Source: Fibrobacter sp. UWB2 (GTDB lineage Bacteria > Fibrobacterota > Fibrobacteria > Fibrobacterales > Fibrobacteraceae). From it: DNA of 64,000 bases. Position numbers and translations under genes: made by a program. Below, in pieces: positions 17,991 to 37,151 of the stretch (its first letter is position 1; every line of letters starts with the position of its first letter). The notes under the pieces were generated by a model. It was not told the origin of the DNA. It did no database searches and was given only the letters and a program-made list of their open reading frames with translations. The stretch covers positions 62,001 through 126,000 of the forward strand of contig NZ_MWQK01000005.1 in assembly GCF_002210425.1 (NCBI RefSeq). The letters run 5' to 3'.

Positions 17991-18136
17991 AAGACACTCC
18001 TTTCCTTAGTTCACACTATATAATATATCCCGAAAAGGTTGAAACGCTCCTCGTTTAAAGAGAAAACTGGTTACATCTGTACCCAGTGTGCGATTTTTCA
18101 ACCTCCCCCACCCTTGCGTTATATTTTTGTTACATT

Positions 18137-18144
18137 TAACTTTG
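18137..18144 (+). promoter_or_regulatory. TAnnTTTG promoter of the ugd operon
   Basis: TAACTTTG matches TAnnTTTG. A TTG lies 20 nt upstream (18114-18116), close to the Bacteroidetes -33/-7 spacing. A 33-nt leader with AAGGA precedes the ATG. Confidence 0.55.
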
Positions 18145-18177
18145 TATATTAATTCCAAAAATATCTTAAGGAATCTT

Positions 18178-19524
18178 ATGAATATTGCGATTGTTGGAAC
18201 CGGTTATGTAGGCCTTGTGAGCGGCACATGCTTTGCCGAAATGGGCGTCAATGTGACATGTGTCGATGTGAACCAGGCTAAAATTGAATCTCTCCAGAAA
18301 GGCGAAATTCCCATATACGAACCGGGTCTCGACGAAATGGTGCTCCGTAACCAGCGCGAAGGCCGTCTCAACTTCACGACCGACCTCGCCAGCGTCCTCG
18401 ACAATGTCGAAATGGTATTCAGCGCCGTGGGTACGCCCCCCGACGAAGACGGTTCCGCCGACTTGCAGTACGTGCTCGCTGTGGCACGCACGTTCGGCCA
18501 GAACATCAAGAAGTACACCGTTCTCGTGACCAAATCTACCGTCCCGGTCGGCACCGCCAAGAAGGTCAAGGCAGCCATCCAGGAAGAGCTTGACAAACGT
18601 GGCGTGAACGTTCCGTTCGACGTCGCAAGCAATCCGGAATTTTTGAAGGAAGGCTCCGCCATCACGGACTTCATGAAGCCCGACCGCGTTGTCGTCGGTG
18701 TGGAAAGCGAACAGGCCAAGGAACTCATGACCCGCCTGTACCGCCCGATGATGCTCAACAACTTCCGCGTGATTTTCACGGACATCCCGAGCGCCGAAAT
18801 GATCAAGTACGCTGCAAACTCCATGCTCGCAACCCGCATCAGCTTCATGAACGACATCGCAAACCTCTGCGAACTCGTGGGCGCCGACGTGAACATGGTC
18901 CGTAAGGGCATCGGTAGCGACACCCGCATCGGCAGCAAATTCCTCTACCCGGGCTGCGGCTACGGTGGAAGCTGCTTCCCGAAGGACGTGAAGGCCCTCA
19001 TCAAGACCGCCGAAAAGAACGGCTACAAGATGGGCGTTCTCAAAGCTGTCGAAGAAGTCAACGAATACCAGAAGACGGTGTTGTTCAACAAGCTCGCAAA
19101 ACGCTTCGGTGGCGAAGCAAACCTCAAGGGCAAGACCATTGCCATGTGGGGTCTCGCCTTCAAGCCCGAAACTGATGACATGCGCGAAGCCACCGCCCTC
19201 GTGCTCATCGACCTCTTGACCAAGGCAGGCGCAACAGTCCGCGTCTATGACCCGGTCGCCATGAACGAATGCAAGCGCCGTATGGCAGCACGCCCTGATG
19301 CCGCAACAATCGCAAAACAAATCGTCTACAGCAACGACATGTACGAAGCTTTGCTCGATGCCGACGCATTGCTGCTCGTCACCGAATGGAAGCAGTTCCG
19401 CATGCCGAGCTTCGGCGTGATGAAGAAGTCCATGAAGAACGCCCTCATCATCGACGGCCGCAACATTTACGACGCCAAGGAACTCGCCGAAGCGGGATTC
19501 GAATACAGCGCCATCGGCTGCTAA
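18178..19524 (+). CDS. ugd: UDP-glucose 6-dehydrogenase, bacterial type
   Basis: Oxidises UDP-glucose to UDP-glucuronate with 2 NAD+. 448 aa. Rossmann motif MNIAIVGTGYVG at the N-terminus, GTPPDEDGSADL, VTKSTVPVGTA, SNPEFLKEG, and the catalytic Cys in GGSCFPKD near residue 265. The open frame runs 30 codons further upstream, but AAGGA lies 5 nt before the ATG at 18178 and the family starts there. The next gene begins 9 nt later and would use the product. A second, dissimilar UDP-glucose dehydrogenase lies at 59310. Confidence 0.95.
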   Translation: MNIAIVGTGYVGLVSGTCFAEMGVNVTCVDVNQAKIESLQKGEIPIYEPGLDEMVLRNQREGRLNFTTDLASVLDNVEMVFSAVGTPPDEDGSADLQYVLAVARTFGQNIKKYTVLVTKSTVPVGTAKKVKAAIQEELDKRGVNVPFDVASNPEFLKEGSAITDFMKPDRVVVGVESEQAKELMTRLYRPMMLNNFRVIFTDIPSAEMIKYAANSMLATRISFMNDIANLCELVGADVNMVRKGIGSDTRIGSKFLYPGCGYGGSCFPKDVKALIKTAEKNGYKMGVLKAVEEVNEYQKTVLFNKLAKRFGGEANLKGKTIAMWGLAFKPETDDMREATALVLIDLLTKAGATVRVYDPVAMNECKRRMAARPDAATIAKQIVYSNDMYEALLDADALLLVTEWKQFRMPSFGVMKKSMKNALIIDGRNIYDAKELAEAGFEYSAIGC

Positions 19525-19533
19525 GGGAACCAA

Positions 19534-20610
19534 ATGCTGGATAAGAACGTCAACCTCAACGGAAAAACAGTCCTCGTCACCGGAGCCGCCGGATTCATCG
19601 GCTGCAACCTCTGCAAGAAGTTGCTCACCGAATACAACTGCGCGGAAATCGTCGGGCTCGACAGCATCACCGACTACTATGACGTGAACATCAAGTACGA
19701 GCGCCTCAAGGAAATCGAAGCCCTCGCGACATCGACCGGCAAAAAGTGGACATTCGTCAAATCGAACCTCGCCGACAAGGCCGCCATCGACAGCCTCTTC
19801 GAGAAATACCACTTTGCCGTCGTCGTGAACCTCGCCGCCCAGGCCGGCGTCCGCTATTCCATCACGAACCCGGATGCCTACATCCAGAGCAACCTCATCG
19901 GATTCTACAACATCTTGGAAGCCTGCCGACACTTTGAAGTCGAGCACCTCGTGTACGCGAGCTCCTCCAGCGTGTACGGCAGCAACAAGAAGATTCCGTA
20001 TTCCACCGACGACAAGGTCGACAATCCGGTCTCGCTGTACGCCGCCACCAAAAAGAGCAACGAGCTCATGGCCCACGCCTACAGCAAGCTCTACAACATC
20101 CCGAGCACGGGGCTGCGCTTCTTTACCGTCTACGGCCCCGCTGGCCGCCCGGACATGGCCTACTTCGGCTTCACCAACAAGCTCAAGGCCGGCAAGACCA
20201 TCCAGATTTTCAACTATGGCAAGTGCAAGCGCGACTTCACATTCGTCGATGACATCGTCGAAGGCGTTGTGCGCGTTATGCAGCACGCCCCCGAAAAGCA
20301 AAACGGCGAAGACGGTCTCCCCCTCCCACCGTACAAGGTCTACAACATCGGCAACAACCACCCGGAAAACCTGCTTGACTTCGTGACAATCCTCCAAGAG
20401 GAACTCGTCCGTGCGAAGGTGCTCCCCGCCGATTACGACTTCGAGGCGCACAAGGAACTCGTGCCCATGCAACCCGGCGACGTGCCCGTGACCTATGCCG
20501 ACACGACCGCCCTGGAGAATGATTTCGGATTCAAGCCCGCAACACCTCTCAGGGAAGGGCTCAGGAAGTTCGCAGAATGGTACGCGGAGTATTACGGGAA
20601 GGGAAAGTAG
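19534..20610 (+). CDS. UDP-glucuronate 4-epimerase
   Basis: SDR-family nucleotide-sugar epimerase of 358 aa, probably interconverting UDP-GlcA and UDP-GalA. It has GAAGFIG (NAD loop, residues ~18-24), YASSSSVYG, catalytic YAATK (Tyr/Lys), and RFFTVYGPAGRPDMA, typical of the GalE-like glucuronate epimerases. It lies 9 nt after ugd, whose product is the substrate, so the two probably form an operon. Other UDP-sugar epimerase activity cannot be excluded. GC-rich codon use matches the core genome, unlike the next cluster. Confidence 0.88.
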   Translation: MLDKNVNLNGKTVLVTGAAGFIGCNLCKKLLTEYNCAEIVGLDSITDYYDVNIKYERLKEIEALATSTGKKWTFVKSNLADKAAIDSLFEKYHFAVVVNLAAQAGVRYSITNPDAYIQSNLIGFYNILEACRHFEVEHLVYASSSSVYGSNKKIPYSTDDKVDNPVSLYAATKKSNELMAHAYSKLYNIPSTGLRFFTVYGPAGRPDMAYFGFTNKLKAGKTIQIFNYGKCKRDFTFVDDIVEGVVRVMQHAPEKQNGEDGLPLPPYKVYNIGNNHPENLLDFVTILQEELVRAKVLPADYDFEAHKELVPMQPGDVPVTYADTTALENDFGFKPATPLREGLRKFAEWYAEYYGKGK

Positions 20611-20693
20611 CAGTTAAAAGAAGTGCTATAAAATTGTGTAAATATATTATAAAGATGTTTGGTTACTATATTGTTAAGAATTAAAAAAAAGGA

Positions 20694-20720
20694 ATGAGTG
20701 TAAACGAGGAGAATTTCTAA
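20694..20720 (+). other. possible leader mini-ORF before the polysaccharide cluster
   Basis: In the 140-bp AT-rich leader before the first glycosyltransferase there is an ATG after AAAGGA that opens an 8-codon ORF. It ends 30 nt before the next ATG, which has no Shine-Dalgarno. TATATT-like promoter boxes (TACTATATTG, near 20664-20673) lie upstream. It may be chance; no attenuation structure is clear. Confidence 0.2.
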
Positions 20721-20750
20721 GTTTAAGAATCTCTAGCGTGATGTAATCTT

Positions 20751-21527
20751 ATGTTTGACTTGTCTTTGGCCATTGTTAGTTACAATAATAAGCATACCAT
20801 AGAAGAATGCCTTGATTCGCTGTATAAAACACAATCAGGCAAACTAACGCTGCAGGTATTCATTGTAAACAACAGCCTGACTGAACGTTGCGAGGACCTC
20901 GAAAAAAAATATCCCGTAAAAGTGATCCAACTTCCCCAAAATGAAGGGTTTGGCAAAGGACATAATGCGGTATTACCCTATCTCAACAGTAAATACCATG
21001 CTATAGTCAACCCTGACATCGTTTTCACTGATAATATTCTCGAGAAGCTAATCGAAGCTTTACAAAACAATCCAGAAGTCGGATGCGCCGCCCCACTTAT
21101 GTTCAACGAAAACGGTATTCAACAGGACGTTTATCGCAGAGAATTAACCGTTATTGATTTATTGGCCCGATACGCCCCTAAATTTTGCCAATCATTTCCT
21201 TTTATAAAAAAACATAATTATTTGCATTTAATGAAAGATGTTTCCAAAGATAAGCCATTTGAATGCGAATTTATACAAGGGTCATTCCTCGTTGTTCCAA
21301 CGCAACTTCTAAAAAAATTAAACGGCTTTGACGATAGATACTTTATGTACGCAGAAGATGCCGATCTTTGCAAACGCATTCGGCAAACTCACAAAGTAAT
21401 GTGTTTCCCCGAATGCCAAATTATCCATAAATGGGAAAAAGCAAGCCATAAGAATTTCAAACTTTGCAAGATCCATTTTGCATCACTTGTTAAATATTTT
21501 TGCAAATGGGGATGGCGAGTATGGTAA
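20751..21527 (+). CDS. GT2 glycosyltransferase (rhamnosyltransferase-like)
   Basis: GT-A fold sugar transferase of 258 aa. Opens MFDLSLAIVSYNNKHTIEECL; has NEGFGKGHN, the DxD-like NPDIVF, and FDDRYFMYAEDADLCKR near the C-terminus as in WbbL-type enzymes. It likely adds one sugar to a lipid-linked oligosaccharide on the cytoplasmic face. First gene of the AT-rich cluster. No Shine-Dalgarno is visible before the ATG. The end, KYFCKWGW, corresponds to the usual family end, but the stop overlaps the truncated epimerase that follows. Confidence 0.85.
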   Translation: MFDLSLAIVSYNNKHTIEECLDSLYKTQSGKLTLQVFIVNNSLTERCEDLEKKYPVKVIQLPQNEGFGKGHNAVLPYLNSKYHAIVNPDIVFTDNILEKLIEALQNNPEVGCAAPLMFNENGIQQDVYRRELTVIDLLARYAPKFCQSFPFIKKHNYLHLMKDVSKDKPFECEFIQGSFLVVPTQLLKKLNGFDDRYFMYAEDADLCKRIRQTHKVMCFPECQIIHKWEKASHKNFKLCKIHFASLVKYFCKWGWRVW

Positions 21528-22405
21528 AGAAAAATATCATCGCAGACCTTTTAGCAGATGGTTCGACGCATTCACAAAAAGTTGATGTCCGTAACCCGAT
21601 TGAGTTGCAAGGAGAATTTGGCAAAAACACGTTGATATTTAACTTTGCAGCAATCCATCGCACTCCGGGGCACCCCGATTATGCCTATTTCGAAACGAAT
21701 ATTCGCGGCGCCGAAAACGTATGTGAATTTGCTCGTAAACACGGCATCGAGAATATTGTCTTCACAAGCAGCATTGCACCATATGGAGCAGCCGAAGACT
21801 TAAAGACAGAAGAAACATTGCCCACCCCTAATACCCCATATGGCATTTCCAAGTTGGTGGCTGAAAGAATTCACCGCGAATGGGCCGCAGAAGATTCAAA
21901 CCGTAGACTTTCAATTGTGCGCCCAGGTATCGTATTCGGCACTGGTGAAAATGGCAACATGACGCGTCTCTATAAAGCACTCAAGAAGCACAAATTCGCA
22001 TACGCAGGCCGCAAGGATACTATCAAGGCTTGCATTTATGTGAAGGACCTCGCTTGTGTAATGTTGTCCATGGCAGAAAACGAAAATGCTGACCACATCC
22101 AGTTGCATAATTGTTGCTATTATCCATCGTTCACCATTGAACGAATTGCAAACACAATGCTCAAGGCGACCGGAATGAAACGCAGGATTCCCTTTATTCC
22201 GCATAAGCCTATGATGGCTGCGGCAACTATATGTGGTTTGCTTGGCGGACTAGGACTTGGCATTTGCCCGGCACGAGTAAAGAAACTGATGATCAGCACA
22301 AATATCGATGGTCAAAAACTCGCAAAGAACTATCCGCTTTCTTATTCGTTGGAAGAAGCCTTCCGCGATTGGTACAAGGACTGTGAACAAAAGGAATTGA
22401 TTTAA
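21506..22405 (+). CDS. NAD-dependent epimerase/dehydratase, N-terminally truncated
   Basis: SDR-family nucleotide-sugar enzyme lacking its first ~35 residues. The ORF begins near IIADLLADGSTHSQKVDVRN, which in relatives follows the GxxGxxG NAD loop and second strand. The rest is intact: NFAAIHRTPGH, FTSSIAPYG, catalytic YGISK, RPGIVFGTGENG. An in-frame stop at 21491 rules out a longer ORF, and upstream sequence codes for the end of the GT2 gene. A deletion joining the two genes is the simplest reading. Without the NAD loop it is probably inactive. Possible starts are at 21506, 21512 and 21521. Confidence 0.75.
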   Translation: MGMASMVKKNIIADLLADGSTHSQKVDVRNPIELQGEFGKNTLIFNFAAIHRTPGHPDYAYFETNIRGAENVCEFARKHGIENIVFTSSIAPYGAAEDLKTEETLPTPNTPYGISKLVAERIHREWAAEDSNRRLSIVRPGIVFGTGENGNMTRLYKALKKHKFAYAGRKDTIKACIYVKDLACVMLSMAENENADHIQLHNCCYYPSFTIERIANTMLKATGMKRRIPFIPHKPMMAAATICGLLGGLGLGICPARVKKLMISTNIDGQKLAKNYPLSYSLEEAFRDWYKDCEQKELI

Positions 22406-23323
22406 GTGAAGATAAGTCTCATCATACCGACACTCAATGCGGGCAAATTCATCGAGCCGTTATTGCAACGACTGAAGGAGCAAACAACTCCCATTGATGA
22501 AATTATTGTCGTTGATTCTTCTTCTGATGATGATACAATTGCAAAGGCGCAAAAGTTTGACGGAGTGAAGACAATTTCTATTGAACGCAAAAATTTCAAT
22601 CATGGCGGAACACGCGATTTCGCAATCCAGCAAACAACAGGGGACATAATTCTTTGTTTAACCCAAGATGCTTTGCCGTGTGACGCTCATTATGTGGAAC
22701 GCTTGATCGCCCCCTTTGTGGAGGATGAAAAAATTGCCATGGCGAGCGGACGTCAAGTCCCACGTGAAGATGCGAATCCAATCGAAAAGCTAACCCGCGA
22801 ATTCAATTATCCCGAAATATGCTTTGTTCGCAGCAAAGATGATATTCCCCGTTTGGGCGTAAAGACCTTCTTTGCCTCGGACTGTTGCTCAGCATACCGA
22901 CGCTCTGCTTATGACGCAATTGGAGGCTTTGACAAACATATTCTTATTAACGAGGATATGAAAATCGCGGCCCAGTTCATTTACGCCGGCTACAAAATCG
23001 CATATGTCGGGACTGCTGGCGTATGGCACTCGCATGATTACAGTTTAAAGCAACAGTACACTAGAAACTTTGATGTGTCTGCCTTCATGACTATGCATCC
23101 TGAATTATTTGCTAATATTTCGGCAACATCAGAAGGCATAAAGATGGTCAAATGGGTTGAAAAGAAGTTGTTGTCGCAAGGTCGCTTGTTTAGCGCAGCT
23201 TATTATATTCTTGAAAGTGGTGTAAAGTTCTTGGCGAATCGTAAAGGTCGCAAGTTTAAAAAGATGAGCTTAGCTCAGTTGCGTAAATCCTCTATGCATA
23301 AAAATTATTGGGTGACAATTTGA
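22406..23323 (+). CDS. GT2 glycosyltransferase
   Basis: GT-A fold enzyme of 305 aa. MKISLIIPTLNAGKFIEPLL opening, VVDSSSDDDT, the NHGGTRDFA motif typical of rhamnosyltransferase-like GT2s, and FASDCCSAYRRSAYDAIGGF. It starts with GTG directly after the epimerase stop (TAAGTG), indicating translational coupling. The C-terminal ~60 residues are basic and could contact the membrane. Donor and acceptor are unknown. Confidence 0.86.
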   Translation: MKISLIIPTLNAGKFIEPLLQRLKEQTTPIDEIIVVDSSSDDDTIAKAQKFDGVKTISIERKNFNHGGTRDFAIQQTTGDIILCLTQDALPCDAHYVERLIAPFVEDEKIAMASGRQVPREDANPIEKLTREFNYPEICFVRSKDDIPRLGVKTFFASDCCSAYRRSAYDAIGGFDKHILINEDMKIAAQFIYAGYKIAYVGTAGVWHSHDYSLKQQYTRNFDVSAFMTMHPELFANISATSEGIKMVKWVEKKLLSQGRLFSAAYYILESGVKFLANRKGRKFKKMSLAQLRKSSMHKNYWVTI

Positions 23324-24429
23324 AAATCTTGTATTTGTCTGCGGATTTACGGAACGTTGGTCCAACCCGTCAAACTCTGAATATCATAAAATATTCGGGA
23401 GTAAAAGAAAATTGCGTAGTTCTTACGCTTTTTGAAGAACCTGATGAAACGCTAATAGATGAGTATCGAAAAGACGGAATTCCTGTAAAATGTCTTTCTT
23501 TAAGTAGGAAATTCTTTTTTTTAAATGGTGTTTCAAAGATTGTTGAATTCTGTAAAGAAAACTCTATTGAATGTATTCATTCTAATGGTGTTAAGCCTGA
23601 TATCATAGCTCATTTTGCGGCTAAAAAGGCAAATGTTAAGCATGTCATCACTTTGCGAAACTTTCCGATGGAAGATTTATCGGGCAGAATGTTTCCTTGG
23701 ATTGGAAAAACTATTGCTCAATTCCACTTGTTTGCTCTGAAACGTTGCATGTATTTGGTTGCTTGCAGCAAAACAATTGCCGATAAAATGCGTAAAGCAT
23801 ACGGGGTGAACATCACGGCAATTCAGAATGGCGTGGATACGGAAAAATTCCAATGCCAGAAAACGCAATCACGAAATGATTTGTATTCTCAATTTGTGTT
23901 GAATGAATCGACAAAATTATTCATTTGTACCAATTCTTTCATTCCAAGAAAACACAATGATGAAATAGCAGATGCTTTTATTCAAGCGAAACTTGAGAAT
24001 GTCGCTTTGGTATTTTTGGGTGATGGACCTTTGTTGAATGATATAAAGGAAAAGTTTAAGGATTGTTCTAACATTCTGTTCTTAGGGAAACAGAAAAATG
24101 TAGCTGCATATTTGCAGAATGCGGATTTCTTTATTTCGGCAAGTGATTCAGAAGGGTTACCCAATGCTGTAATCGAATCGCTTGCTTGTGGTTGCCCTGT
24201 TATCTTGTCTGATATTCCTCAGCATCGAGAAATTTTGGATGTTATGCCAAGTTGTGGTCTGCTATACCCATTGCATGATGGTGAAGCATTAAAGGCTTGT
24301 TTGAAACAATGCATGAGCAAATCTTTTGCAGACTCTAATGCTGCGATATCCCAGTCTCCTTTTACAATGCAAAAAATGGGTGAGTCTTACAAAATGTATT
24401 ATGAGAAGGTTCGTAACAATGTTTTTTAA
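23320..24429 (+). CDS. GT4 glycosyltransferase
   Basis: GT-B fold transferase of 369 aa. LKILYLSADLRNVGPTRQTL begins the acceptor domain; the donor domain has AIQNGVDTEKF, SFIPRKHNDE, LGDGPLLNDIK and SASDSEGLPNAVIESLACG (the E-x7-E nucleotide-sugar motif). A TTG start at 23320 overlaps the previous stop by 4 nt; a TTG at 23308 is possible. Codon use shifts to very AT-rich here. Cytoplasmic assembly of the repeat unit is inferred from context. Confidence 0.85.
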   Translation: MKILYLSADLRNVGPTRQTLNIIKYSGVKENCVVLTLFEEPDETLIDEYRKDGIPVKCLSLSRKFFFLNGVSKIVEFCKENSIECIHSNGVKPDIIAHFAAKKANVKHVITLRNFPMEDLSGRMFPWIGKTIAQFHLFALKRCMYLVACSKTIADKMRKAYGVNITAIQNGVDTEKFQCQKTQSRNDLYSQFVLNESTKLFICTNSFIPRKHNDEIADAFIQAKLENVALVFLGDGPLLNDIKEKFKDCSNILFLGKQKNVAAYLQNADFFISASDSEGLPNAVIESLACGCPVILSDIPQHREILDVMPSCGLLYPLHDGEALKACLKQCMSKSFADSNAAISQSPFTMQKMGESYKMYYEKVRNNVF

Positions 24430-25282
24430 AATTCTTTTGTATAAGTATTTGTTGCAGTGGATTCCTGATTCTCTTTGGATTCGTATCCAGTTTCGTCGTA
24501 AAGTGGGGCGTTGGCCGAATTTAAAAAATCCTAAAACTTTCAATGAAAAATTGCAATGGCTAAAGTTGCACGACCGAAATCCTTTGTATACGAAGTTGGT
24601 GGATAAATACGAGGTTAAATCGATCGTCGCAAAGCAAATAGGTGAGGAATATATCATTCCGACTTTGGGTGTTTGGGATAAATTTGATGATATTGATTTT
24701 GGTAAACTCCCAAACCAGTTTGTTTTAAAATGTACTCATGATAGTGGAGGACTTATTGTTGTTAAAGATAAGTCAACATTGGATATTGCGGCCGCAAGAA
24801 AGAAGATAAATGCATGCTTAAAAATGAATTACTATTGGACTTTGCGTGAATGGCCTTATAAAAATGTAAAGCCGCGTATTATTGCAGAAAAGTATATGGA
24901 AGATGAATCTGGCTATGAGTTAAAAGATTATAAGATTTTTTGTTTTAACGGTGAACCGAAGGCTCTGTTTATTGCTACAGATAGAGGTATCCATGAAACG
25001 AAATTTGATTTTTTTGATGTTGATTTAAATCACTTGCCGATGAAGCAACATTATCCAAATAATCCCGATATTAAAATTCCAGATCCCGCGGGAATAAAAA
25101 AAATGTTTGAGTTGGCGCATGTTTTGACCAAGGACTTTAAGCATTGCCGGGCTGATTTTTACGATATAAACGGAAAAATATATTTTGGCGAATTAACGTT
25201 TTCTCATTTTAGCGGAATGCAACCAATGGAGCCTGCTGAATGGGACGAAAGATTTGGTTCTTGGTTGGATTTGAAAAATTGA
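24419..25282 (+). CDS. TupA-like ATP-grasp protein
   Basis: 287-aa member of the TupA-like ATP-grasp family, named after a teichuronopeptide synthesis protein of alkaliphilic Bacillus. Diagnostic segments: LKNPKTFNEKLQWLKLHDRNP, FVLKCTHDSGG (ATP-binding Lys), PRIIAEKYMED, DYKIFCFNGEPK, and CRADFYDINGKIYFGELTF (metal-binding Asp/Glu). ATP-grasp enzymes form amide-type bonds via acyl phosphates, so it may attach an amino compound to a sugar acid. GAAGG lies 9 nt before the ATG, and it overlaps the GT4 gene by 11 nt. First of three ATP-grasp genes in a row. Confidence 0.85.
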   Translation: MFFKILLYKYLLQWIPDSLWIRIQFRRKVGRWPNLKNPKTFNEKLQWLKLHDRNPLYTKLVDKYEVKSIVAKQIGEEYIIPTLGVWDKFDDIDFGKLPNQFVLKCTHDSGGLIVVKDKSTLDIAAARKKINACLKMNYYWTLREWPYKNVKPRIIAEKYMEDESGYELKDYKIFCFNGEPKALFIATDRGIHETKFDFFDVDLNHLPMKQHYPNNPDIKIPDPAGIKKMFELAHVLTKDFKHCRADFYDINGKIYFGELTFSHFSGMQPMEPAEWDERFGSWLDLKN

Positions 25283-25292
25283 GGGATATGGA

Positions 25293-26438
25293 ATGAAACA
25301 ACTTGTAGAAAATTTGATAAATGGTTTTGTTGCAAAGGTAAAAAAGGCGATTTATTTAAAGCAAGGAAAATCTTGGTGTAAAAAAGCTAAGGTTAATGGA
25401 TGCAGACTATATAAACCGAACAATAAACTGTATAAAAAATATCAGGAAAAGTGGGGCTTGCTTGAAACACCTGTGATGCGTGAGTATTTAGAGGTGTTCT
25501 GTGCGTATTTGCAAAATGATGAGGATCGTTTAAATATTGTTCCTGAAAACATATGCCATAATGTAATTGAACCGGTATTGAATCCGTTTCGTTATAGAGT
25601 TTTTTTTGAAGACAAGAATTACTTTGCAAAAATTCTTGGCAAAGATATTCTGCCGAATGAATTTCTACGTTGTATAAATGGAACTTTTTATGATGGTGAC
25701 TACAATTGTGTTGCTACTGAAGATTTGCCTAAAAAAATGGGCGAAATCGCGGCGATTGCTCCACATATTATCGTGAAGCCTACAGTTGATTCTTGTTCTG
25801 GAAATGGAATTCACTTTTTTAAGTGGAATGGTCAAAAATTTGAAAATGATAAGGGAAATTCGTTTGAACAGATTCTCTTGAATGGAAAAATTAAAAATTT
25901 TGTAGTGCAAGAAGTTCTTAAACAATCTGATTTTATAAGTCAGTTTGGGCCTACTTCGGTCAATACACTTCGTATTGTGACATATAAAAGTGTGAAAGAT
26001 GAATGTGTTCATATTCCAGCAATGCTTTTGCGCATTGGAAAAATTGGAGCAAATGTGGACAACGCACATGCAGGAGGCTTGTTTGTTGGTATAAATCCTG
26101 AAACAGGAGAACTTGGAAAATATGTAAGTGACCAATATGGCAAAACTCAGTCTGTTTTTAATGGAATAGACTTTTCGAATTCCAATTACAAAATCCCGAA
26201 TTTTGACAAAGTTTTGGCTTTTGCTAAAAAAGTACATTCTGTAATTCCATACCATAGATTATTGGCTTTAGATGTTGTCCTCATGGGGAATGGCTGTAAA
26301 TTGATTGAATATAATATTAGTGCTTTTAGTACATGGTTATTTCCGTTTGTTGGCCAAACCCCATTCGGTAAATGGACGGATGAAATTATAGAATATTGTT
26401 CTGAAAAAAAACAGTTGCAGAGATTTTGGTTGGTATAG
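25293..26438 (+). CDS. ATP-grasp protein, sugar-transfer-associated type
   Basis: 381-aa ATP-grasp enzyme of the kind found in capsule loci (ATPgrasp_ST-like). A basic N-terminal ~110 residues precede the core, which has PHIIVKPTVDSCSGNGIHF (nucleotide loop), FVVQEVLKQ, TLRIVTYK, DNAHAGGLFVGIN and LIEYNISAFSTW (E-x-N metal ligands). It begins 10 nt after the TupA-like gene. Acceptor and amine are unknown. It is similar in plan to the next gene but divergent in sequence, so it is not a recent duplicate. Confidence 0.82.
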   Translation: MKQLVENLINGFVAKVKKAIYLKQGKSWCKKAKVNGCRLYKPNNKLYKKYQEKWGLLETPVMREYLEVFCAYLQNDEDRLNIVPENICHNVIEPVLNPFRYRVFFEDKNYFAKILGKDILPNEFLRCINGTFYDGDYNCVATEDLPKKMGEIAAIAPHIIVKPTVDSCSGNGIHFFKWNGQKFENDKGNSFEQILLNGKIKNFVVQEVLKQSDFISQFGPTSVNTLRIVTYKSVKDECVHIPAMLLRIGKIGANVDNAHAGGLFVGINPETGELGKYVSDQYGKTQSVFNGIDFSNSNYKIPNFDKVLAFAKKVHSVIPYHRLLALDVVLMGNGCKLIEYNISAFSTWLFPFVGQTPFGKWTDEIIEYCSEKKQLQRFWLV

Positions 26439-26474
26439 ATAAAGCTTCAATTTTATTTTCATTGGGAGATAACT

Positions 26475-27491
26475 ATGAAAAAAATACTTGACATGATAAA
26501 AAGGGCTTTGTACTACAATTCAGTTGTAAAAAAAATATCGGGAAAATCACATTTTTTTGACATATTCCTTTCAAGAATTATAATCGGAGTGCCTTTTGAT
26601 AGGTATGTTGATTTCTGTTTTTATGATAAGCCATGGAAAGTGCGTCGTGAATATTTGTTTAATGAGTGGAAGTATTATGTCAAATATAATCCTGGGGTAA
26701 CTCGTGGCAATCACGATGACAAAAGTGATATTTTCTCTAAGTGCTTGCCTTATTTGAAACGAGAAGTTTTGAAAACGCATAATCTTTCTTTAGATGCTTT
26801 TAAAGTTTTTGTTCAAGGGAAAAAAAGTTTTTTTTATAAACCGCTAGATGGAGATAGTGGGCGAGGTGTTGAAAAAATACTTGTAACAGGTGATATTGAT
26901 ACTCTTTATACGGAGGTGTTAAAGAAAGGTGTAGGTATTCTAGAAGAAACGGTAATTCAACATAAAGACATGAATAGGATGAATCCTAATTTAGTGCAAA
27001 CAATAAGATTCTTTGTTTGCAAAGGCTCGGCGCAAACAAAAATTGTGTTTACCGCATTAAGAACATCTTTGAAGGATAATGTTTGTGTTGATAATGCGGG
27101 CTTTGGTGGTGCCTTTGCTAATGTTGACCTAAATACCGGAATGATTTCTACTAACGCCTTTAGTGAAATAGCTGCGTTAAAGGGTGATTTTGATGTTCGT
27201 CTTGTGAATGATGCTGGGCTAGTAAAGCATCCTGTTACAGGAACAATCTTTAAAGGGTTTAAAATACCATTTTTTGATGAAGCTTCTGCTTTTGTTCTAG
27301 AAATTTCAAATAAAGTAGATTTTTATGGAAGGGCACTTCTTGGATTTGATATTGCTATATCAGAAAAAGGTCCTATATTAATTGAAGTGAATGCTAATAG
27401 ACCGGGAATAAGTGAATTGTGGCAAATTCCTTTGAAATATAAACCTTTGAGAAATGAATTTGAAAAAATACTCAAGGATAGTGGCTTGTAA
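26475..27491 (+). CDS. ATP-grasp protein, sugar-transfer-associated type
   Basis: 338-aa ATP-grasp enzyme, third in the series. FFYKPLDGDSGRGVEKI is the nucleotide loop; TIRFFVCKG, DNAGFGGAFANVDLNTG and LIEVNANRPGI (E-x-N ligands) follow the same order as the gene at 25293. GGGAG lies 6 nt before the ATG. The stop overlaps the next start as TAATG, so translation is coupled. Very low GC (A/T-rich third positions) suggests transfer together with its neighbours. Confidence 0.82.
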   Translation: MKKILDMIKRALYYNSVVKKISGKSHFFDIFLSRIIIGVPFDRYVDFCFYDKPWKVRREYLFNEWKYYVKYNPGVTRGNHDDKSDIFSKCLPYLKREVLKTHNLSLDAFKVFVQGKKSFFYKPLDGDSGRGVEKILVTGDIDTLYTEVLKKGVGILEETVIQHKDMNRMNPNLVQTIRFFVCKGSAQTKIVFTALRTSLKDNVCVDNAGFGGAFANVDLNTGMISTNAFSEIAALKGDFDVRLVNDAGLVKHPVTGTIFKGFKIPFFDEASAFVLEISNKVDFYGRALLGFDIAISEKGPILIEVNANRPGISELWQIPLKYKPLRNEFEKILKDSGL

Positions 27492-28474
27492 TGAAAAATA
27501 AAATCGCTTTTATTATCCCTTATTTTGGAAAATTCCCGGAATATTTTAATTTCTGGTTGAGAACAGCGGGTTGTAACAAGAACATTGACTTTCTTATTTT
27601 TACAGATGATCAAAGAAAATTTGACTATCCTTCCAATGTGAAAGTTCATTACATGTCTTTCGCAGAAATGAAAGATTATATACAAAAAAAATTCCCCTTT
27701 AAGATTTCTTTAGAGCATCCGTACAAATTGTGTGATTTTAAGTTGGCTTATGGGTTTATATTTGAAGATTTTTTGAAGACCTACGACTTTTGGGGGCATT
27801 GTGATTTAGATGTCGTTTGGGGTGATGTAAGACATTTCCTAACAGATGACATTTTGGACAATTATGACAAAATCTTAGAACATGGTCATTGTGAATTGTA
27901 TAGAAATACGGAAGATATAAATAGACGCTTTATGAAAGATAATCATCCGTTTGTATCTTACAAAGAGGTGCTTTCTACAAATGCTTCATTTTGTTTTGAT
28001 GAAAAAACATCGCCGATGAATCGAAATTTATGGAAAGATATAAAATGCTATTCGAATAACAAATTATTTGTCAACATTAGTTTTAATGATTATTCAGGCT
28101 TTTTTAAAGATTTTAATTCTGGTAAAATAGGTTATCTTTGCTGGAATCAGGGACTATTATCGTACTTGTCCAAAGAACATGAAATACAATATGTCATGTA
28201 TGCTCATTTCCAGTACAGAAATCCATCTACGCATGTTGATGAAAATGAATCAGGTTTCGTATTAATGCCAACAGGTTTTTTCCCAAAGGAGAAAAAAACT
28301 GCAGTAAATCAATTTCTATTTGGTCACAATATAACTGCCCAAAAAAGTATCATTAAAAATTATATCTACAAAATTTTGTATGTTTTAGGCTTTAATCGAG
28401 ATTTTAAAAGAATGTTTATGATTCCTAGCCACTTCACTTATAAAAAATATTGGAAGGGGGAATTTGTAAAATGA
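27491..28474 (+). CDS. DUF6625-like putative glycosyltransferase
   Basis: 327-aa protein of a family seen in capsule loci, here assigned as DUF6625-like from memory. KIAFIIPYFGKFPEYFNFWL starts a GT-A-like fold; FLIFTDD and FWGHCDLDVVWGDVR supply a DxD-type metal site. The C-terminal third (ITAQKSIIKNYIYKILYVLG onward) is basic and hydrophobic, suggesting membrane association. Start and stop overlaps with both neighbours indicate a coupled operon. The transferred sugar is unknown. Confidence 0.7.
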   Translation: MKNKIAFIIPYFGKFPEYFNFWLRTAGCNKNIDFLIFTDDQRKFDYPSNVKVHYMSFAEMKDYIQKKFPFKISLEHPYKLCDFKLAYGFIFEDFLKTYDFWGHCDLDVVWGDVRHFLTDDILDNYDKILEHGHCELYRNTEDINRRFMKDNHPFVSYKEVLSTNASFCFDEKTSPMNRNLWKDIKCYSNNKLFVNISFNDYSGFFKDFNSGKIGYLCWNQGLLSYLSKEHEIQYVMYAHFQYRNPSTHVDENESGFVLMPTGFFPKEKKTAVNQFLFGHNITAQKSIIKNYIYKILYVLGFNRDFKRMFMIPSHFTYKKYWKGEFVK

Positions 28475-29373
28475 AAAAAAATATATCTGTTGTAATGGCT
28501 GTATATAACGGCGAAAAATATTTACGTGAGCAACTTGATAGCATTTACGCACAAACCTTAAAACCGTATGAAGTAATAGCCGTTGACGATTGTTCCACAG
28601 ACAGTTCTTTTGCCATTCTAAAGGAGTATGCAGCAACAAAAGGTTTACGTTGCATCTCTAATGAAAAAAATCTTGGTGTAAATGCCTCTTTTGCCAAAGC
28701 TATATCTCTCGCCACTTGTGAATTCATTGCTATTAGCGATCAGGATGATGTTTGGTTTGATTGCAAACTTGAACGATTGTATCAAGAATTATCAACAATG
28801 CCTGATAATGAACCAAATCTGGTGACATCGGCGGTAACCGATGTTGATTCTGATTTGAATGTTGTTTACAAAAAAAATATATCCTTGCATCCAGCTTCTT
28901 TTTATGACTTTGTCCCAGACTTGTTTATGCAGGGCTCTACTCAATTATTTAATAGGAAAGTAAAAGATCTTGTGGTTATAGCACCTAAAGGTACGTATGA
29001 TTTGCAAATTTCCACAACAGTATCGTTGTGTGGAAATAGAAAATTTGTAACTGAACCTCTTGGCTATTATCGGCATCATAATAAAAATGTAGCTGCTTCT
29101 TGGAATTATTCAAAATTTGGGCGTTTTTTACGCCATATTTTTAGAAAATATATTTTAGATTATGGAATATCAAAAGCATATATAACACTTTTTTTAAAGC
29201 CCAAATATGACGAATATAAATCAAGCATTTCTATTAACCGGAGCAATTTCTTCGAAAAAATTACACATATTAATGAAAATATTTTCTGTTTATTGGCAAT
29301 TAAGGAGTGGAGCCTTGTAAAACGAATTAGAGTTTTTTTAGGAACAATAATTTTGAAAATGCTTAAGAGATGA
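28471..29373 (+). CDS. GT2 glycosyltransferase
   Basis: 300-aa GT-A enzyme. MKKNISVVMAVYNGEKYLREQ opening, VDDCSTDSSF, NLGVNASFAKAI, and ISDQDDVWFDCKLE (the DxD-equivalent QDD of this GT2 subgroup). GYYRHHNKNVAAS occurs in rhamnosyl- and related transferases. A GGGGG tract lies upstream of the ATG, which overlaps the previous stop (ATGA). Specificity not decidable. Confidence 0.86.
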   Translation: MKKNISVVMAVYNGEKYLREQLDSIYAQTLKPYEVIAVDDCSTDSSFAILKEYAATKGLRCISNEKNLGVNASFAKAISLATCEFIAISDQDDVWFDCKLERLYQELSTMPDNEPNLVTSAVTDVDSDLNVVYKKNISLHPASFYDFVPDLFMQGSTQLFNRKVKDLVVIAPKGTYDLQISTTVSLCGNRKFVTEPLGYYRHHNKNVAASWNYSKFGRFLRHIFRKYILDYGISKAYITLFLKPKYDEYKSSISINRSNFFEKITHINENIFCLLAIKEWSLVKRIRVFLGTIILKMLKR

Positions 29374-29381
29374 AATAGCAT

Positions 29382-30692
29382 ATGAATGTTTTTCTTTTTG
29401 TTTCCATTCCAATTTTGTTTTTTTCCATACGAAATTATCATAAGGCATTTTTGTGGTATTTCCTTTTTCGATTGTTTTTATCGAACTTTGTACCCTTTTT
29501 AGCCATTGTTGGAATACCTCAAATTCGATTGAGCTTGGTTTGTGACACGTGGTTTATCATTCTACCGTTGTTGATGCATATAAAAGAAAAAGGTCTTTTT
29601 AAGGTCCCTAAATTACCATCTGAATTAAGACCCTTTGCATGGATGATTTTCTTGGTGATTTTTTCATCAACGATTTCCGTATTGCCTCTTTTTAATTCTT
29701 TGAGTTGTGCGTTCTTGGAGTGCGTCAGTTCATATATATTTCCTCTGCTTTTTTTTGCAAAAATAAAACATCCTTCAGATCTAAAATTTATCATTACAGG
29801 GTTGATGATTATTTCCGTAATTGCCGCGATATATGCTTATTTGGAAGCATTTGTTTTCGGCTATCAGAATCCCTTGATTATGTACGAGCAATCATTAAAT
29901 CCCAATATTACAGAAAATATGTGGTCTTATAGTTTTTTTGACAGAGGTGGGCGTGGGCGTATTTCTTCAATATTTGCTCACGCTATTGGTTGCGGATGCA
30001 CGATGTCAATTTTTGCTGTGTTTTTTTTGTATGTTAAAGGGGCGTTTAATTCCTATATCGTTTCTAATAAACTTTATTATATTTCTGTTTTTTCCGCCGT
30101 ATTTTTAGTAGCCCTATGCAATTCACGTTCTCCATATCCTTTAATTTTCATTTCACTTCTAGCTTTAATAAAGTCTAAATCATTCCTCAAACTCGCCAGT
30201 GTTGGCGTTGTTTTGATATTTATTTTTCAGTCAGAACTAGCGACATTTATTGACGTTTTATTAAGTATTTTCGACAAAAACATTGAGGAACATTTGGGGG
30301 GAGGTTCAAATATAGAAATGAGAATGGAACAATTTGAAGCTCTATTAACAGCCTGGTTGTCCGGCAACCCTATATTTGGTGAGGGTGCTTATGCAACTCG
30401 TTTTTGGTTAGATAAAAATATTGGTTTAATGGGAGGAGAATCTATATGGATTAATCTTTTGTTAAATACGGGCTTATTGGGATGTGTTTTTTACTTGAAC
30501 ATTATGAAAGGTTTAGTTATGCTAGGGAAGGGATATGGAAAAAAAACAATCTTTTTCTTTGTAGTAGGTTGGATTGTCATGAAATCCGCCTCATCAACGC
30601 CCGGATTAGATACATCGCTGTTTTTTATGGTGATGTTTTGTATAGCTAAATTGAATATGTTGAGCAATGAAATTAACTCAAAAAATGAATAG
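29382..30692 (+). CDS. Wzy-like O-antigen/capsule polymerase
   Basis: 436-aa polytopic membrane protein with about 11-12 hydrophobic helices and a large periplasmic loop around residues 165-205 (SYSFFDRGGRGRISSIFAH). A second conserved region, FGEGAYATRFWLDKN then GGESIWINLLLNTGLLG, is typical of the O-antigen ligase/polymerase family. It would join repeat units on the periplasmic side. It sits directly before the flippase gene, the usual Wzx/Wzy pairing. A second such protein is at 53568. Confidence 0.8.
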   Translation: MNVFLFVSIPILFFSIRNYHKAFLWYFLFRLFLSNFVPFLAIVGIPQIRLSLVCDTWFIILPLLMHIKEKGLFKVPKLPSELRPFAWMIFLVIFSSTISVLPLFNSLSCAFLECVSSYIFPLLFFAKIKHPSDLKFIITGLMIISVIAAIYAYLEAFVFGYQNPLIMYEQSLNPNITENMWSYSFFDRGGRGRISSIFAHAIGCGCTMSIFAVFFLYVKGAFNSYIVSNKLYYISVFSAVFLVALCNSRSPYPLIFISLLALIKSKSFLKLASVGVVLIFIFQSELATFIDVLLSIFDKNIEEHLGGGSNIEMRMEQFEALLTAWLSGNPIFGEGAYATRFWLDKNIGLMGGESIWINLLLNTGLLGCVFYLNIMKGLVMLGKGYGKKTIFFFVVGWIVMKSASSTPGLDTSLFFMVMFCIAKLNMLSNEINSKNE

Positions 30693-30703
30693 GTTTAGCG
30701 ATC

Positions 30704-32251
30704 GTGTCTTCTTATGCGGAAAATAACAAGCGAATAGCCAAAAATACGTTGTTGCTATATTTCAGAATGCTCATCACAATGGCGGTAAGTCTATATACGA
30801 GTCGCGTTGTTCTGCAGGCTCTCGGCGTTGAAGATTTTGGAATATACAATGTCGTTGGAGGAGTTGTCGTTCTAATCACTTTTTTAAACAATTCATTAAC
30901 AGGCGCAACGCAACGATTTTTAAGTATTGGTTTAGGTACTGCGCATATATGTAATTTGTCAAAAATTTTTAACACATGTATTTTTGTTCATAAAATATTA
31001 GCCATTGTCATTCTTTTGTTTTCTCAATTTATTGGTTTATGGTTCATTGACAATAAACTGCAAATTCCTACCAATCGGGCTGTTGCTGCTTTTTGGGTAT
31101 TTCAAGCTTCGGTTTGTTCGATGGTGGTTATGATTTTGAGTGTTCCTTACAATGCCCTTATAATAGCTTACGAGCAAATGAGAGCGTTTGCATACGTATC
31201 TATTATTGAGGTTTTCTTTAAATTGCTGGTTGCGTTGAGCTTAAAAATAATCATCTTTGACAAATTGATTTATTACGCGGTGTTAATTGTTTTTGCACAA
31301 ATAGTTGTAAGAATGATTTACCAGTGGTATTGCCATAAAAAATATAGCGATATTGTTTCTGAATCTAAATATGATAAAAAAACAATGGTTGAAATATTAA
31401 AGTTCGCATCATGGACTATTATAGGGAATCTAGCAAATATACTGTCAAGTCAGGGCTTAAATATTTTGCTTAATATTTTTTTCGGGCCTATAGTAAATGC
31501 TTCGCGTGGTTTAGCTGTACAAATTCAATCCGCATTGCAAAGCTTTGTTTCAAACTTTCAAACATCAATAAATCCACAAATATTCAAGACGTTCGCGGCA
31601 CAGCAAATAGATTATCATCGAAAATTAGTTATATCTAGCGCACGTTTTTCTATGCTATTAATGGGTTTTTTGTCAATACCTTTTATTTTTGAAGCGGAAA
31701 TTATTCTAGACCTTTGGTTGGGGAATGTTCCCGCTTATGCTGCAAATTTTCTTCGATTAACTCTTGTTATTGTAACCCTCGACGCGTCTGTCAATGCTCC
31801 AGACATGTCGATAAATGCTACGGGAAAAATAAGGACATATCAACTGACAACATGTGGCATTATGCTTTTGACGGTGCCGATTTCGTATCTTTTTTTAGTA
31901 AATGGATGTAAGCCCTATGTTGTATACTACATTCATTTTGCGGTAATTGTATTTTCACAAATGATGAGACTGTTACTTGATGCTCGTTACACTGGACTGT
32001 CGTTGAAAGATTTTTTTTTAAAAGTATATCTGAAAAATTTGATTTCAATATGCCTTATGTCAATCATTCCTTATATAATATTTATTTCTGTTCAACAGGG
32101 AATTTTAAGGCTTATGTTAACAATGATTTTTTCTTATTTAGGCGGACTATTAATCATTTTTTTCGTTTCGTTTAATTCAAATGAGCGGCAGCTTGTCTTG
32201 GATTTTCTAAAAAGGAAATTAATGGGTGGCATAAACAAGAAAAAAGCTTAA
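30704..32251 (+). CDS. Wzx-like polysaccharide flippase
   Basis: 515-aa MOP-superfamily transporter with about 12-14 helices. RIAKNTLLLYFRMLITMAVS, LYTSRVVLQALGVEDFGIYN and VVGGVVVLITFLNNSLTGATQ mark this flippase type, common in capsule loci of Bacteroidetes-like organisms. It would translocate the undecaprenyl-linked unit across the inner membrane. The start is GTG (30704); no ATG fits the frame. The next gene, an acyltransferase, follows after 67 nt. Confidence 0.85.
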   Translation: MSSYAENNKRIAKNTLLLYFRMLITMAVSLYTSRVVLQALGVEDFGIYNVVGGVVVLITFLNNSLTGATQRFLSIGLGTAHICNLSKIFNTCIFVHKILAIVILLFSQFIGLWFIDNKLQIPTNRAVAAFWVFQASVCSMVVMILSVPYNALIIAYEQMRAFAYVSIIEVFFKLLVALSLKIIIFDKLIYYAVLIVFAQIVVRMIYQWYCHKKYSDIVSESKYDKKTMVEILKFASWTIIGNLANILSSQGLNILLNIFFGPIVNASRGLAVQIQSALQSFVSNFQTSINPQIFKTFAAQQIDYHRKLVISSARFSMLLMGFLSIPFIFEAEIILDLWLGNVPAYAANFLRLTLVIVTLDASVNAPDMSINATGKIRTYQLTTCGIMLLTVPISYLFLVNGCKPYVVYYIHFAVIVFSQMMRLLLDARYTGLSLKDFFLKVYLKNLISICLMSIIPYIIFISVQQGILRLMLTMIFSYLGGLLIIFFVSFNSNERQLVLDFLKRKLMGGINKKKA

Positions 32252-32318
32252 GTAAATCTCTTGAACTATTTGTTTATAAAAACTAACCAACAATCGTACG
32301 TATGGGATTGGTATAGAC

Positions 32319-33312
32319 ATGAAATTCAGAAACGAATCTATTGAATTTTTGCGCGTCATCGCCATGCTATTTATCGTTATGTTGCATGTGTCGGGGGCAT
32401 TTGCAAACCTAGAAGCTGATGGAACGTTTGAAAATGCTTTGCATCATTCTTTTAGGTCAGTGTGCTTCACTGGAGTTACCATATTTGCCTTTATTTCTGG
32501 ATATTTTGGTGTAAAATGGAACGGCAAGAAGTTCTTTGATTATGAGATGATGGCTATATCATTTGAAATACTCGTTTTTATTTTCACGATTCTTTTTGTT
32601 TCCTCGTTTAACATCAGTGTTTCTTTAAGAAGTTTGTTCCCCATAGCTGGAGGATGCCACTGGTATTTTTCAGCATATATGATTTTTATGTTACTAGTAA
32701 AGTTTTTGCCCCCCAGCAAAAGTTGTGCCCAAAAGTAGGCTAATTTTGATGATATTGCTTTTCATTACATATGCAGTCCAGTTTTTAAACAAGACTAATG
32801 GAACCACATTTTTGATGTTTGTTGAAATATATATGATAGGAAGATGTCTCCGTTTAAATCCAATTTTATGGATCGAAAATCATTGTGGAAAAATAATGAT
32901 GGTGACATTGCCTTTGAATGCCGTTCTATTCTTTTTGGCCGCATACTTCAATTTTTTGAACGGCAAACTTTTGCAAATCTTGGCAAATAATCATAATCCC
33001 TTAATTTTTATTTCTGCAATCTGTCTTTTTTATTTTTTCAAGAACCATTCTTTTAATACTAGTTCCGAGATTTTTTGCAGGTTAGCTTCCTATATGTTTT
33101 CAGTATATATCGTTCACTGCGCATTTTTTGATGAAGGTTGCTTGAAAGTGTATATGAAACAAAATTTGATTTTGAACAATATTTATGTGTCTTTCATTTG
33201 CTGGTCTGCCCTGATGTTTGTTGCCCCTGTTTTTCTAGAAATGATTCGGCGAAAAATTTTTTCTCAACTAAATGACAAAGTATTTTGTTGGCTTTTGAAA
33301 AAAGAAGGATAA
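32319..33312 (+). pseudogene. acyltransferase 3 family gene, frameshifted at a poly-C tract
   Basis: Membrane O-acyltransferase (acyltransferase_3) interrupted by a frameshift. Frame one (32319-32738) gives SIEFLRVIAMLFIVMLHVSG with the catalytic-type His and runs to LLVKFLPP, then shifts to a stop. The remainder (to 33312) continues in the +1 frame from KSRLILMILLF to the end. Six C at 32709-32714 mark the shift; with five C the gene would be one ORF of 330 aa. It may be a dead gene, a slippage-controlled gene or an assembly error. If whole, it would acylate the polysaccharide. Confidence 0.85.
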
Positions 33313-33316
33313 ATAC

Positions 33317-34471
33317 ATGAATATCTTGTATATGATGCGATATTGGCCTGTCTATGGCGGAGGAGAAACTATTACCGTTACTTTGGCAAACGAATTTATT
33401 CGTCGAGGGTACAAAGTTTTTGCGTCCTATTTGTATTACAAAACAATTAATCCAATGCCATATCAATTAAACGAATCAATCGGCACAATTGAAATTTCAT
33501 CGTACGATGTAAATGATTCCATTTCACTGAAATTGTATCATGATTTTTTGAAAGAGCATAATATTGATTTGATTATAAATCAATGGGGCGATACGTCCTT
33601 TGCCCGTAAGGCGATTGGTAATTTACCTGTGAAATTAATTCGGTGTTGGCACCAAGAAGTCATTCCAAAATTTGATGATAGACATAGCAAAATAAAGAAT
33701 TTCTTCAATGATCACATTCATCCAATATATGCATGGAGGGAAAAAAGGAACTATCTCCGAATGCATAAAGAAGAAATAAACATAAGCGATGAATATATTT
33801 TTCTTGCAAATTCTTTTTTGAATGATTTTAAACATTTGTCTCATAACTACAAGGTACATAAATTGGGTGCTATTTCGAATCCTCTGACATACACTGATTT
33901 TTTTGACATGGCAAATTATGAAAAAAAGGAAAAAATGGTCCTTTTTGTAGGCCGAATGTTAGAACATCATAAGCGCATGTCTTATATGCTAAAAATATGG
34001 AAAGAGATTTGCGTAGATTCAGAATTTTCGGATTGGAAACTCGTCATGGTTGGTGACGGGCCGGATTTTTCTAAAACAAAAGAAATGGCACAAAAGATGG
34101 GATTAACAAATATTGTGATGAATGGTAAATTTGAAAATCCCAGACCTTACTACAACAAGGCTTCGGTCTTTTTGATGACTTCTGCTAGCGAAGGTTTTGG
34201 AATGACTCTTTTAGAATCCCAACAATATGCATGTGTACCTATGGCAATGGACACATATGGAAGTTTACATGAGATTATCAAGGACGGATACAACGGATTG
34301 ATCATCAAGGATAACGATTTTGAAGCCTATGTAAATCAGCTGAAGGAATTGATGAGGAACAAAAAATGGAGAAGATCCCTTGCAGGAAACGGACTTGAGA
34401 GTTCTCGTGAATTTTCTCTCCCTAAAATTGCTGACAAATGGGAAGAATTGTTTCGGAGCTTGGTTAAATGA
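33317..34471 (+). CDS. GT4 glycosyltransferase
   Basis: 384-aa GT-B enzyme. MNILYMMRYWPVYGGGETITV carries the Gly-rich N-terminal loop; LFVGRMLEHHKR, MVGDGPDFSKTK and SASEGFGMTLLESQQYA (E-x7-E region) form the donor domain. AAGGA lies 7 nt before the ATG, which is 4 nt after the split acyltransferase. It overlaps the next gene by 4 nt (ATGA). Cytoplasmic. Confidence 0.87.
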   Translation: MNILYMMRYWPVYGGGETITVTLANEFIRRGYKVFASYLYYKTINPMPYQLNESIGTIEISSYDVNDSISLKLYHDFLKEHNIDLIINQWGDTSFARKAIGNLPVKLIRCWHQEVIPKFDDRHSKIKNFFNDHIHPIYAWREKRNYLRMHKEEINISDEYIFLANSFLNDFKHLSHNYKVHKLGAISNPLTYTDFFDMANYEKKEKMVLFVGRMLEHHKRMSYMLKIWKEICVDSEFSDWKLVMVGDGPDFSKTKEMAQKMGLTNIVMNGKFENPRPYYNKASVFLMTSASEGFGMTLLESQQYACVPMAMDTYGSLHEIIKDGYNGLIIKDNDFEAYVNQLKELMRNKKWRRSLAGNGLESSREFSLPKIADKWEELFRSLVK

Positions 34472-35640: not shown

Positions 35641-35702
35641 AGTCAAGCATCAATCCGCAACAAATCATCCCCTCCGCGATACAAACCTCTCCCCAATTTT
35701 TC

Positions 35703-35710
35703 TAAATTTG
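35703..35710 (+). promoter_or_regulatory. TAnnTTTG promoter element
   Basis: TAAATTTG matches TAnnTTTG and ends 5 nt before the ATG at 35716, the same spacing as at rimO. There is no Shine-Dalgarno. Confidence 0.45.
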
Positions 35711-35715
35711 CGCGC

Positions 35716-36471: not shown

Positions 36472-36482
36472 CGCCTTCGGCG

Positions 36483-36512
36483 AGTTACTAGTTAATAGTT
36501 ATTAGTTACTAG
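36483..36512. repeat. AGTTACTAG direct repeats
   Basis: Two identical copies of AGTTACTAG (36483-36491 and 36504-36512) flank TTAATAGTTATT, itself made of similar TAGTTA units. Confidence 0.6.
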
Positions 36513-36550
36513 AAATTTGTTAAAAGACGCGGCTTTGCCGCATGTGTCAT

Positions 36551-36582
36551 GCCCCGCTCCGACGGGGCTTCTTCTTTTTTTT
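36551..36582 (+). terminator. Terminator of the flavoprotein gene
   Basis: GCCCCG and CGGGGC pair around a 6-nt loop and are followed by a T-rich run (TTCTTCTTTTTTTT). Confidence 0.85.
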
Positions 36583-36595
36583 AAGCACAAAAGCC

Positions 36596-36622
36596 GATCC
36601 CGGAACAGAGTCCGGGATGACG
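36596..36622. repeat. Hairpin repeat related to the 30-bp element
   Basis: GATCCCGGA-ACAGAG-TCCGGGATGACG. It shares GATCCC at one end and GGATGAC at the other with the 30-bp repeats, but its middle forms a perfect 6-bp stem. The relationship is inferred from this partial match. Confidence 0.45.
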
Positions 36623-36680
36623 CAATGGGAGGCGCAGAGTCTCGCAAAAAGCAAAACGTGCCCGAACCGCATAAATACAG

Positions 36681-36707: not shown

Positions 36708-36728
36708 CCGTAAAAGCAAAATCGCAGA

Positions 36729-37133: not shown

Positions 37134-37151
37134 AGTTTTCTCCGTTCTAAA

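Follow-up and report, generated by a model that had tools for sequence, protein, structure and literature searches.

Paired TupA-type and sugar-transfer-type ATP-grasp genes in a variable surface-polysaccharide locus of Fibrobacter: candidate ligases for amide decoration of glycans

A gene pair encoding a TupA-type ATP-grasp ligase (TupA) and an ATP-grasp ligase of the sugar-transfer type (ST1) recurs in Fibrobacterota, Bacteroidota and Clostridia. In Fibrobacter sp. UWB2 it lies, together with a second sugar-transfer-type gene (ST2) and a DUF6625 gene, in a polysaccharide locus of the window analysed here (the whole 64,000-nucleotide stretch; Table 1). The locus is best read as one of a known decoration type, that of the capsule uronamide ligases, and an undescribed second enzyme may serve this known sugar decoration. 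The three ligases probably decorate acidic sugars with amino acids or comparable amines.

Table 1. Genes of the polysaccharide locus, in coordinates of the window.
Feature	Position	Strand	Evidence
UDP-glucose 6-dehydrogenase (UGD; UDP-GlcA supply), constant left flank	18175-19524	+	NDP-sugDHase above cut-off
UDP-sugar epimerase/dehydratase-type SDR, constant left flank	19534-20610	+	PF01370 1.6e-56
GT2, truncated SDR remnant, GT2, GT4, upstream of TupA	20751-24429	+	Pfam
TupA-type ATP-grasp ligase (TupA)	24419-25282 (24401 start also possible)	+	PF14305 ATPgrasp_TupA 3.9e-70
ST1, ATP-grasp ligase of TupA-partner clade	25293-26438	+	PF14397 ATPgrasp_ST 1.8e-34
ST2, ATP-grasp ligase, different deep lineage	26475-27491	+	PF14397 1.5e-30
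DUF6625 protein, possibly glycosyltransferase	27491-28474	+	PF20330 6e-85
GT2, Wzy-like membrane protein, Wzx-like flippase, split acyltransferase, GT4, unassigned protein	28450-35640	+	
FMN reductase and protein of unknown function (36750 gene), constant right flank	35716-37682	+	

That one TupA-type and two sugar-transfer-type ATP-grasp genes adjoin each other and are followed by a DUF6625 gene had already been noticed in a sequence-only reading of this DNA, and Pfam agrees: TupA scores 236.5 bits against a curated PF14305 cut-off of 25, while ST1 and ST2 score 119.7 and 106.8 bits against a curated PF14397 cut-off of 31.4. TupA is a free-standing protein of ~290 aa without a fused GT2 domain. 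The start given for it in that reading, 24419, is a better fit than 24401, since an SD-like AGAAGG lies ~10 nt upstream. All four genes are on the same strand, with gaps of 10 bp (TupA-ST1) and 36 bp (ST1-ST2) and an overlap of 1 bp (ST2-DUF6625), a spacing which suggests a single operon. In whole-genome profile searches, PF14397 matched exactly two genes and PF14305 one in the entire 3.53 Mb genome, all in this row; with the sole copies of both ATP-grasp families falling within 3.1 kb, their clustering is not a matter of chance.

The active sites of the three proteins look intact. Both ST1 and ST2 keep K108, K162, R227, R247, D327 and E339-x-N341 (ST1 numbering), the residues invariant in 15 aligned ST proteins from three phyla, and TupA keeps everything that is invariant in an alignment of 14 TupA proteins (K110, D176-Y-K178, R250, D252 and E264-x-T266). 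The E-x-N ligands previously attributed to all three are thus found in ST1 and ST2 only; the last TupA motif is E-x-T in all 14 aligned proteins and is normal for the family.

The TupA-ST1 linkage was recovered with a profile built from ST1 only, TupA not being part of the query, which yielded 14 loci from ~85,000 bacterial and archaeal genomes. A TupA gene lies on the same strand within 1.6 kb at 9 of 11 ST1-clade loci, in most of them directly adjacent; these belong to Fibrobacter UBA1765, Muribaculaceae, Bacteroidales, Alistipes, Ruminococcus flavefaciens, Anaerostipes and three other Clostridia MAGs. ST1 and TupA are also adjacent in a second locus of Parabacteroides (L130). In the tree, ST1 falls into a clade with support of 99/97, 12 of whose 16 rows lie near a TupA. 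Counted by locus, TupA is nearby in 11/14 ST1-clade as against 1/21 other ST loci (Fisher p = 9e-6), although the two sets differ taxonomically and the counts include short contigs and some related loci; when Bacteroidota alone are considered, the figures are 4/7 and 0/14 (p = 0.006). TupA is always on the same strand as the neighbouring ST1-clade gene. The family itself is present in 40 of the 168 Fibrobacterota genomes and exceeds the cut-off in 6 of 295 sampled Bacteroidia genomes. Literature searches by accession and name, with many subscription papers out of reach, returned no paper on PF14397 or PF14305, no description of a TupA-ST1 module and no role for PF14397 as a TupA partner; the pair is apparently an undescribed two-ligase module. 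Three Clostridia loci (L080, L082 and L083) each carry two or three TupA genes and one ST1; in such Clostridia, polymers may commonly undergo several TupA-type steps.

The window holds a second polysaccharide locus, at 41-60 kb. It encodes a fourth, unrelated ATP-grasp protein (45635-46789; carbamoyl-phosphate-synthase-like, with a weak ATPgrasp_Ter match) and a radical SAM/SPASM protein (57090-58184) that is kept in loci L065 (90%), L070 (68%) and L078 (57%). In genome G150 (L065, 1-8883), a homologue of positions 54818-59304 of this second locus (GT4, radical SAM/SPASM and GT4 at 66-90%) has TupA-ST1 directly behind GT4, at the point where the window's second locus runs straight to the next GT2. 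In this respect the pair behaves as a cassette.

ST2 and DUF6625 stand apart from this linkage. ST2 shares 21% identity with ST1 and sits on a long branch outside the TupA-partner clade; an origin as a tandem duplicate of ST1 was rejected on account of this low identity and of the different clades, and ST2 is, judging from its sequence, an independent addition to the locus. A search for plasmid carriage of ST2 gave weak distant matches only. The DUF6625 protein, which carries a DxD-like CDLD motif and may on that ground possibly be a glycosyltransferase, was found in 2 of the 168 Fibrobacterota genomes, the second of which (L070) shows no ligase over its 12.7 kb; it was consequently rejected as a member of the conserved ligase set. 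The conserved co-occurrence of the four genes, which the sequence-only reading had proposed to look for, therefore holds for TupA with ST1, with ST2 and DUF6625 falling outside it.

This raises the question of whether only TupA and ST1 work as a unit, ST2 being a recent passenger with an unrelated or unused modification and there being no three-step series. The lineage of ST2 differs, its other members rarely occur near a TupA, and TupA-ST1 is found without ST2 in G150, L078, L080, L082 and L083. Yet ST2 keeps every invariant catalytic residue and belongs to the same operon-like row, and a Muribaculaceae locus (L075) likewise has the order ST-ST-TupA, even if the first of its two ST ORFs appears short or split. 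We regard the passenger explanation as a serious contender that nonetheless falls somewhat short of being probable. The reading that we prefer, and consider reasonably likely as a whole, is that all three ATP-grasp proteins are carboxylate-amine ligases decorating the repeat unit, with TupA, ST1 and ST2 each performing a step.

From its sequence, the region 18175-37682 is recognisable as a serotype-like variable polysaccharide locus of the genus (also represented by L146-L157). UGD and the SDR are 94-99% identical in a dozen congeneric genomes, with different glycosyltransferase and flippase sets behind them. Taken singly, UGD shows 95-99% identity in relatives bearing other cassettes, and the SDR 95-97% in 12 other genomes of the genus. 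The FMN reductase and 36750 genes, at 93-99% identity, close other cassettes in L148, L149, L152 and L153. The GC3 of the measured flank genes is 0.58-0.83, compared with 0.24-0.46 for the ligase and other cassette genes (~0.30 where measured in the part downstream of DUF6625). Of 13 related cassettes, some of which run into contig ends, three have a TupA gene, namely the present one and its counterparts in G105 and G117. UGD matches the TuaD model at 2.1e-161, though under that model's cut-off, and the SDR, for which no NCBIfam equivalog scored above cut-off, is probably a UDP-GlcA 4-epimerase. Within the cassette, GT4 overlaps TupA by 11 bp, counted from the 24419 start; the Wzx flippase (30704-32251) exceeds the PF01943 cut-off (31.6 vs 28.2 bits), and the Wzy-like protein (29382-30692) has no Pfam or NCBIfam match and is 25% identical to the Wzy-like protein of L065.

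Also within the cassette, a frameshift in a stretch of six C divides the Acyltransferase_3 gene (32319-33312), which is either decayed or possibly phase-variable. The SDR remnant at 21518-22405 lacks the N-terminal Rossmann glycine motif and looks 5'-truncated, because its homologue in G063 (L149; 84% identical, 332 aa) has the motif. A perfect sigma70 consensus at 26557-26584, within the ST2 gene, is probably a chance occurrence, since the region has no excess of promoter-like sites (57 found vs 55 expected).

The UDP-uronate genes upstream, to which the sequence-only reading had pointed, are indeed there, but they are not particular to the ligases and do not identify the substrate. UGD and the epimerase were rejected as ligase-specific genes because they form a constant flank, present with or without ligases; a uronate is thus available, which is compatible with, and not specific evidence for, uronate as the ligase substrate.

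The closest functional precedent is Cj1438C of Campylobacter jejuni, whose TupA-like ATP-grasp domain has been shown experimentally to be an amidoligase acting on glucuronate: within the growing capsule chain, it amidates glucuronate at the C6 carboxylate with serinol-phosphate or ethanolamine-phosphate, and the next glycosyltransferase requires the amide (PMC11800379, PMC11800397). UDP-GlcA is not a substrate, the enzyme acting once GlcA is in the chain (PMC11800397), and an assay with UDP-hexuronates could accordingly mislead as a first test of the ligases. Compared by its description, Cj1438C, the HS:2 capsule amidoligase, resembles the window TupA in being a TupA-like ATP-grasp protein of a surface-polysaccharide cluster. 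It differs in being fused to GT2, whereas the window TupA is free-standing and paired with ST1, and in being served by a dedicated serinol-phosphate/ethanolamine-phosphate pathway and a HAD phosphatase. The scan of the locus proteins revealed no pathway of this kind, and those of 18088-37682, a few of which had no Pfam match, yielded neither a HAD phosphatase nor a PLP enzyme.

PMC10609480 records amides of uronates with Ala, Lys, Ser, Thr, Gly, Glu and further amino acids. The same paper provides, from a different phylum, a chemical precedent for two different amino acids amide-linked to the uronates of a single polymer: in the O28 O-antigen of Proteus mirabilis, Ser and Lys both form amides with GalA (PMC10609480, ref 54). 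In the literature that we found, an enzyme for uronate amidation is named in one system only, that of the Campylobacter TupA-like ligase, and our search found no paper on a Fibrobacter surface polymer. The namesake of TupA is the teichuronopeptide of Bacillus C-125, a polymer joining glucuronate and glutamate. It is a Gram-positive cell-wall polymer, whereas the window has a Gram-negative Wzx-like locus with no indication of a glutamate polymer. For the glucuronate moiety of teichuronopeptide, the source is reference 20 of PMC2824669.

The ligases might instead place an amino acid or short peptide on an amino sugar, by N-acylation, or on a non-uronate carboxylate, with the uronate genes supplying another sugar. 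Amino sugars with N-linked amino acids are common (PMC10609480); the genes for UGD and the epimerase flank the cassettes whether or not these contain ligases; and in G061 (L066) a GlmS-like amino-sugar enzyme is encoded near ST1. Nevertheless, the sole experimentally known TupA-like glycan ligase that we found uses the GlcA carboxylate, and UGD homologues recur in TupA/ST1 or ST loci (L076, L077, L079 and L080), adjoined in L079 and L080 by SDR homologues at 74-76%. We consider this alternative unlikely, and retain uronate amidation as the preferred reading. The uronate-amide polymer envisaged by the sequence-only reading is partly supported, being favoured by the Cj1438C precedent, the uronate amides on record and the TupA-ST1 linkage. 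Its details fared less well: ST2 and DUF6625 are outside the linkage, the uronate genes are a constant flank and UDP-GlcA is not the substrate in Campylobacter.

Structural comparison is consistent with ligase chemistry. The AlphaFold models of ST1 (pLDDT 88) and TupA (pLDDT 90) identify both as ATP-grasp folds when compared with the PDB, ST2 being assigned to this fold by Pfam only. The best matches of ST1 are ArgX/LysX and RimK (VIA Z 14.9-14.2, with 14.9 to ArgX and 14.8 to RimK; rmsd 3.0-3.8 A over 221-227 residues), and those of TupA are D-Ala-D-Ala ligases (VIA Z 14.7, rmsd 4.1 A, 211 residues). Sequence searches returned no close solved relatives of ST1, ST2 or TupA. LysX/ArgX, RimK and the D-Ala-D-Ala ligases are all ATP-grasp ligases joining an amine to a carboxylate. 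LysX/ArgX and RimK, which add amino acids, are 14-18% identical to ST1 and act on protein acceptors, whereas ST1 sits in glycan loci. Carboxylation and other ligations are also run by ATP-grasp folds, and for this reason the ligase reaction is not proven by the shared fold alone. That the proteins are sugar or phospho-sugar transferases performing no ligation, as the mention of sugar transfer in the name of PF14397 might imply, is highly improbable, given that the models match ATP-grasp ligases over most of their length, that the catalytic residues are kept and that the locus has separate GT2 and GT4 genes.

Four related loci have amino-acid or amine enzymes beside or between their ligase genes. 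In Bacteroidales (L077), ST1 and TupA enclose the gene of a saccharopine-dehydrogenase-like protein; in G057 (L064), a member of the alanine-dehydrogenase family is encoded between TupA and an ST that belongs to another lineage; in Clostridia, the gene for an alanine/serine racemase-like protein overlaps TupA (L084) and a class I/II aminotransferase gene adjoins a second TupA (L082). This points to amino acids, sometimes modified or in the D-form, as the amine donor. In the window cassette we identified no gene for making an amine, and the whole genome yielded no AlaDH/PNT family gene; an amine supply of the opine-dehydrogenase type was rejected for this strain on the latter ground. A common amino acid is therefore the likeliest amine here.

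From these comparisons we infer the ligase chemistry, the uronate acceptor, the amino-acid amine, the groups added and the order of the steps. The repeat unit would be decorated in the cytoplasm by TupA, ST1 and ST2. TupA would convert the C6 carboxylate of a uronate that the growing lipid-linked unit already carries into an acyl phosphate, and so activate it for coupling to an amino acid or a comparable amine. ST1 would then perform a second, dependent ligation, giving a dipeptide-like extension of the amide or a group on a second carboxylate, and ST2 would add a further group. If the Campylobacter analogy holds, the next glycosyl transfer may depend on prior amidation. Far more tentatively, we propose that TupA and ST1 constitute a dedicated module of two ligases, which bacteria of the gut and rumen in three phyla inherit and exchange as a unit. 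In two obligatory ATP-dependent steps, the module would furnish polysaccharide uronates with an amide-linked substituent, either a dipeptide or an opine-like group. PF14397 would thereby be an uncharacterised glycan ligase family, and ST2 would add a third group in this strain.

The TupA-ST1 pair, together with the amino-acid and amine enzymes that neighbour it in some relatives, offers a testable function for the PF14397 family. The prediction that follows is that surface glycans of rumen and gut bacteria, among them a major fibre degrader, are rich in amides and possibly zwitterionic. If this is true, the structure of surface polysaccharides would become more readable from genome sequence.
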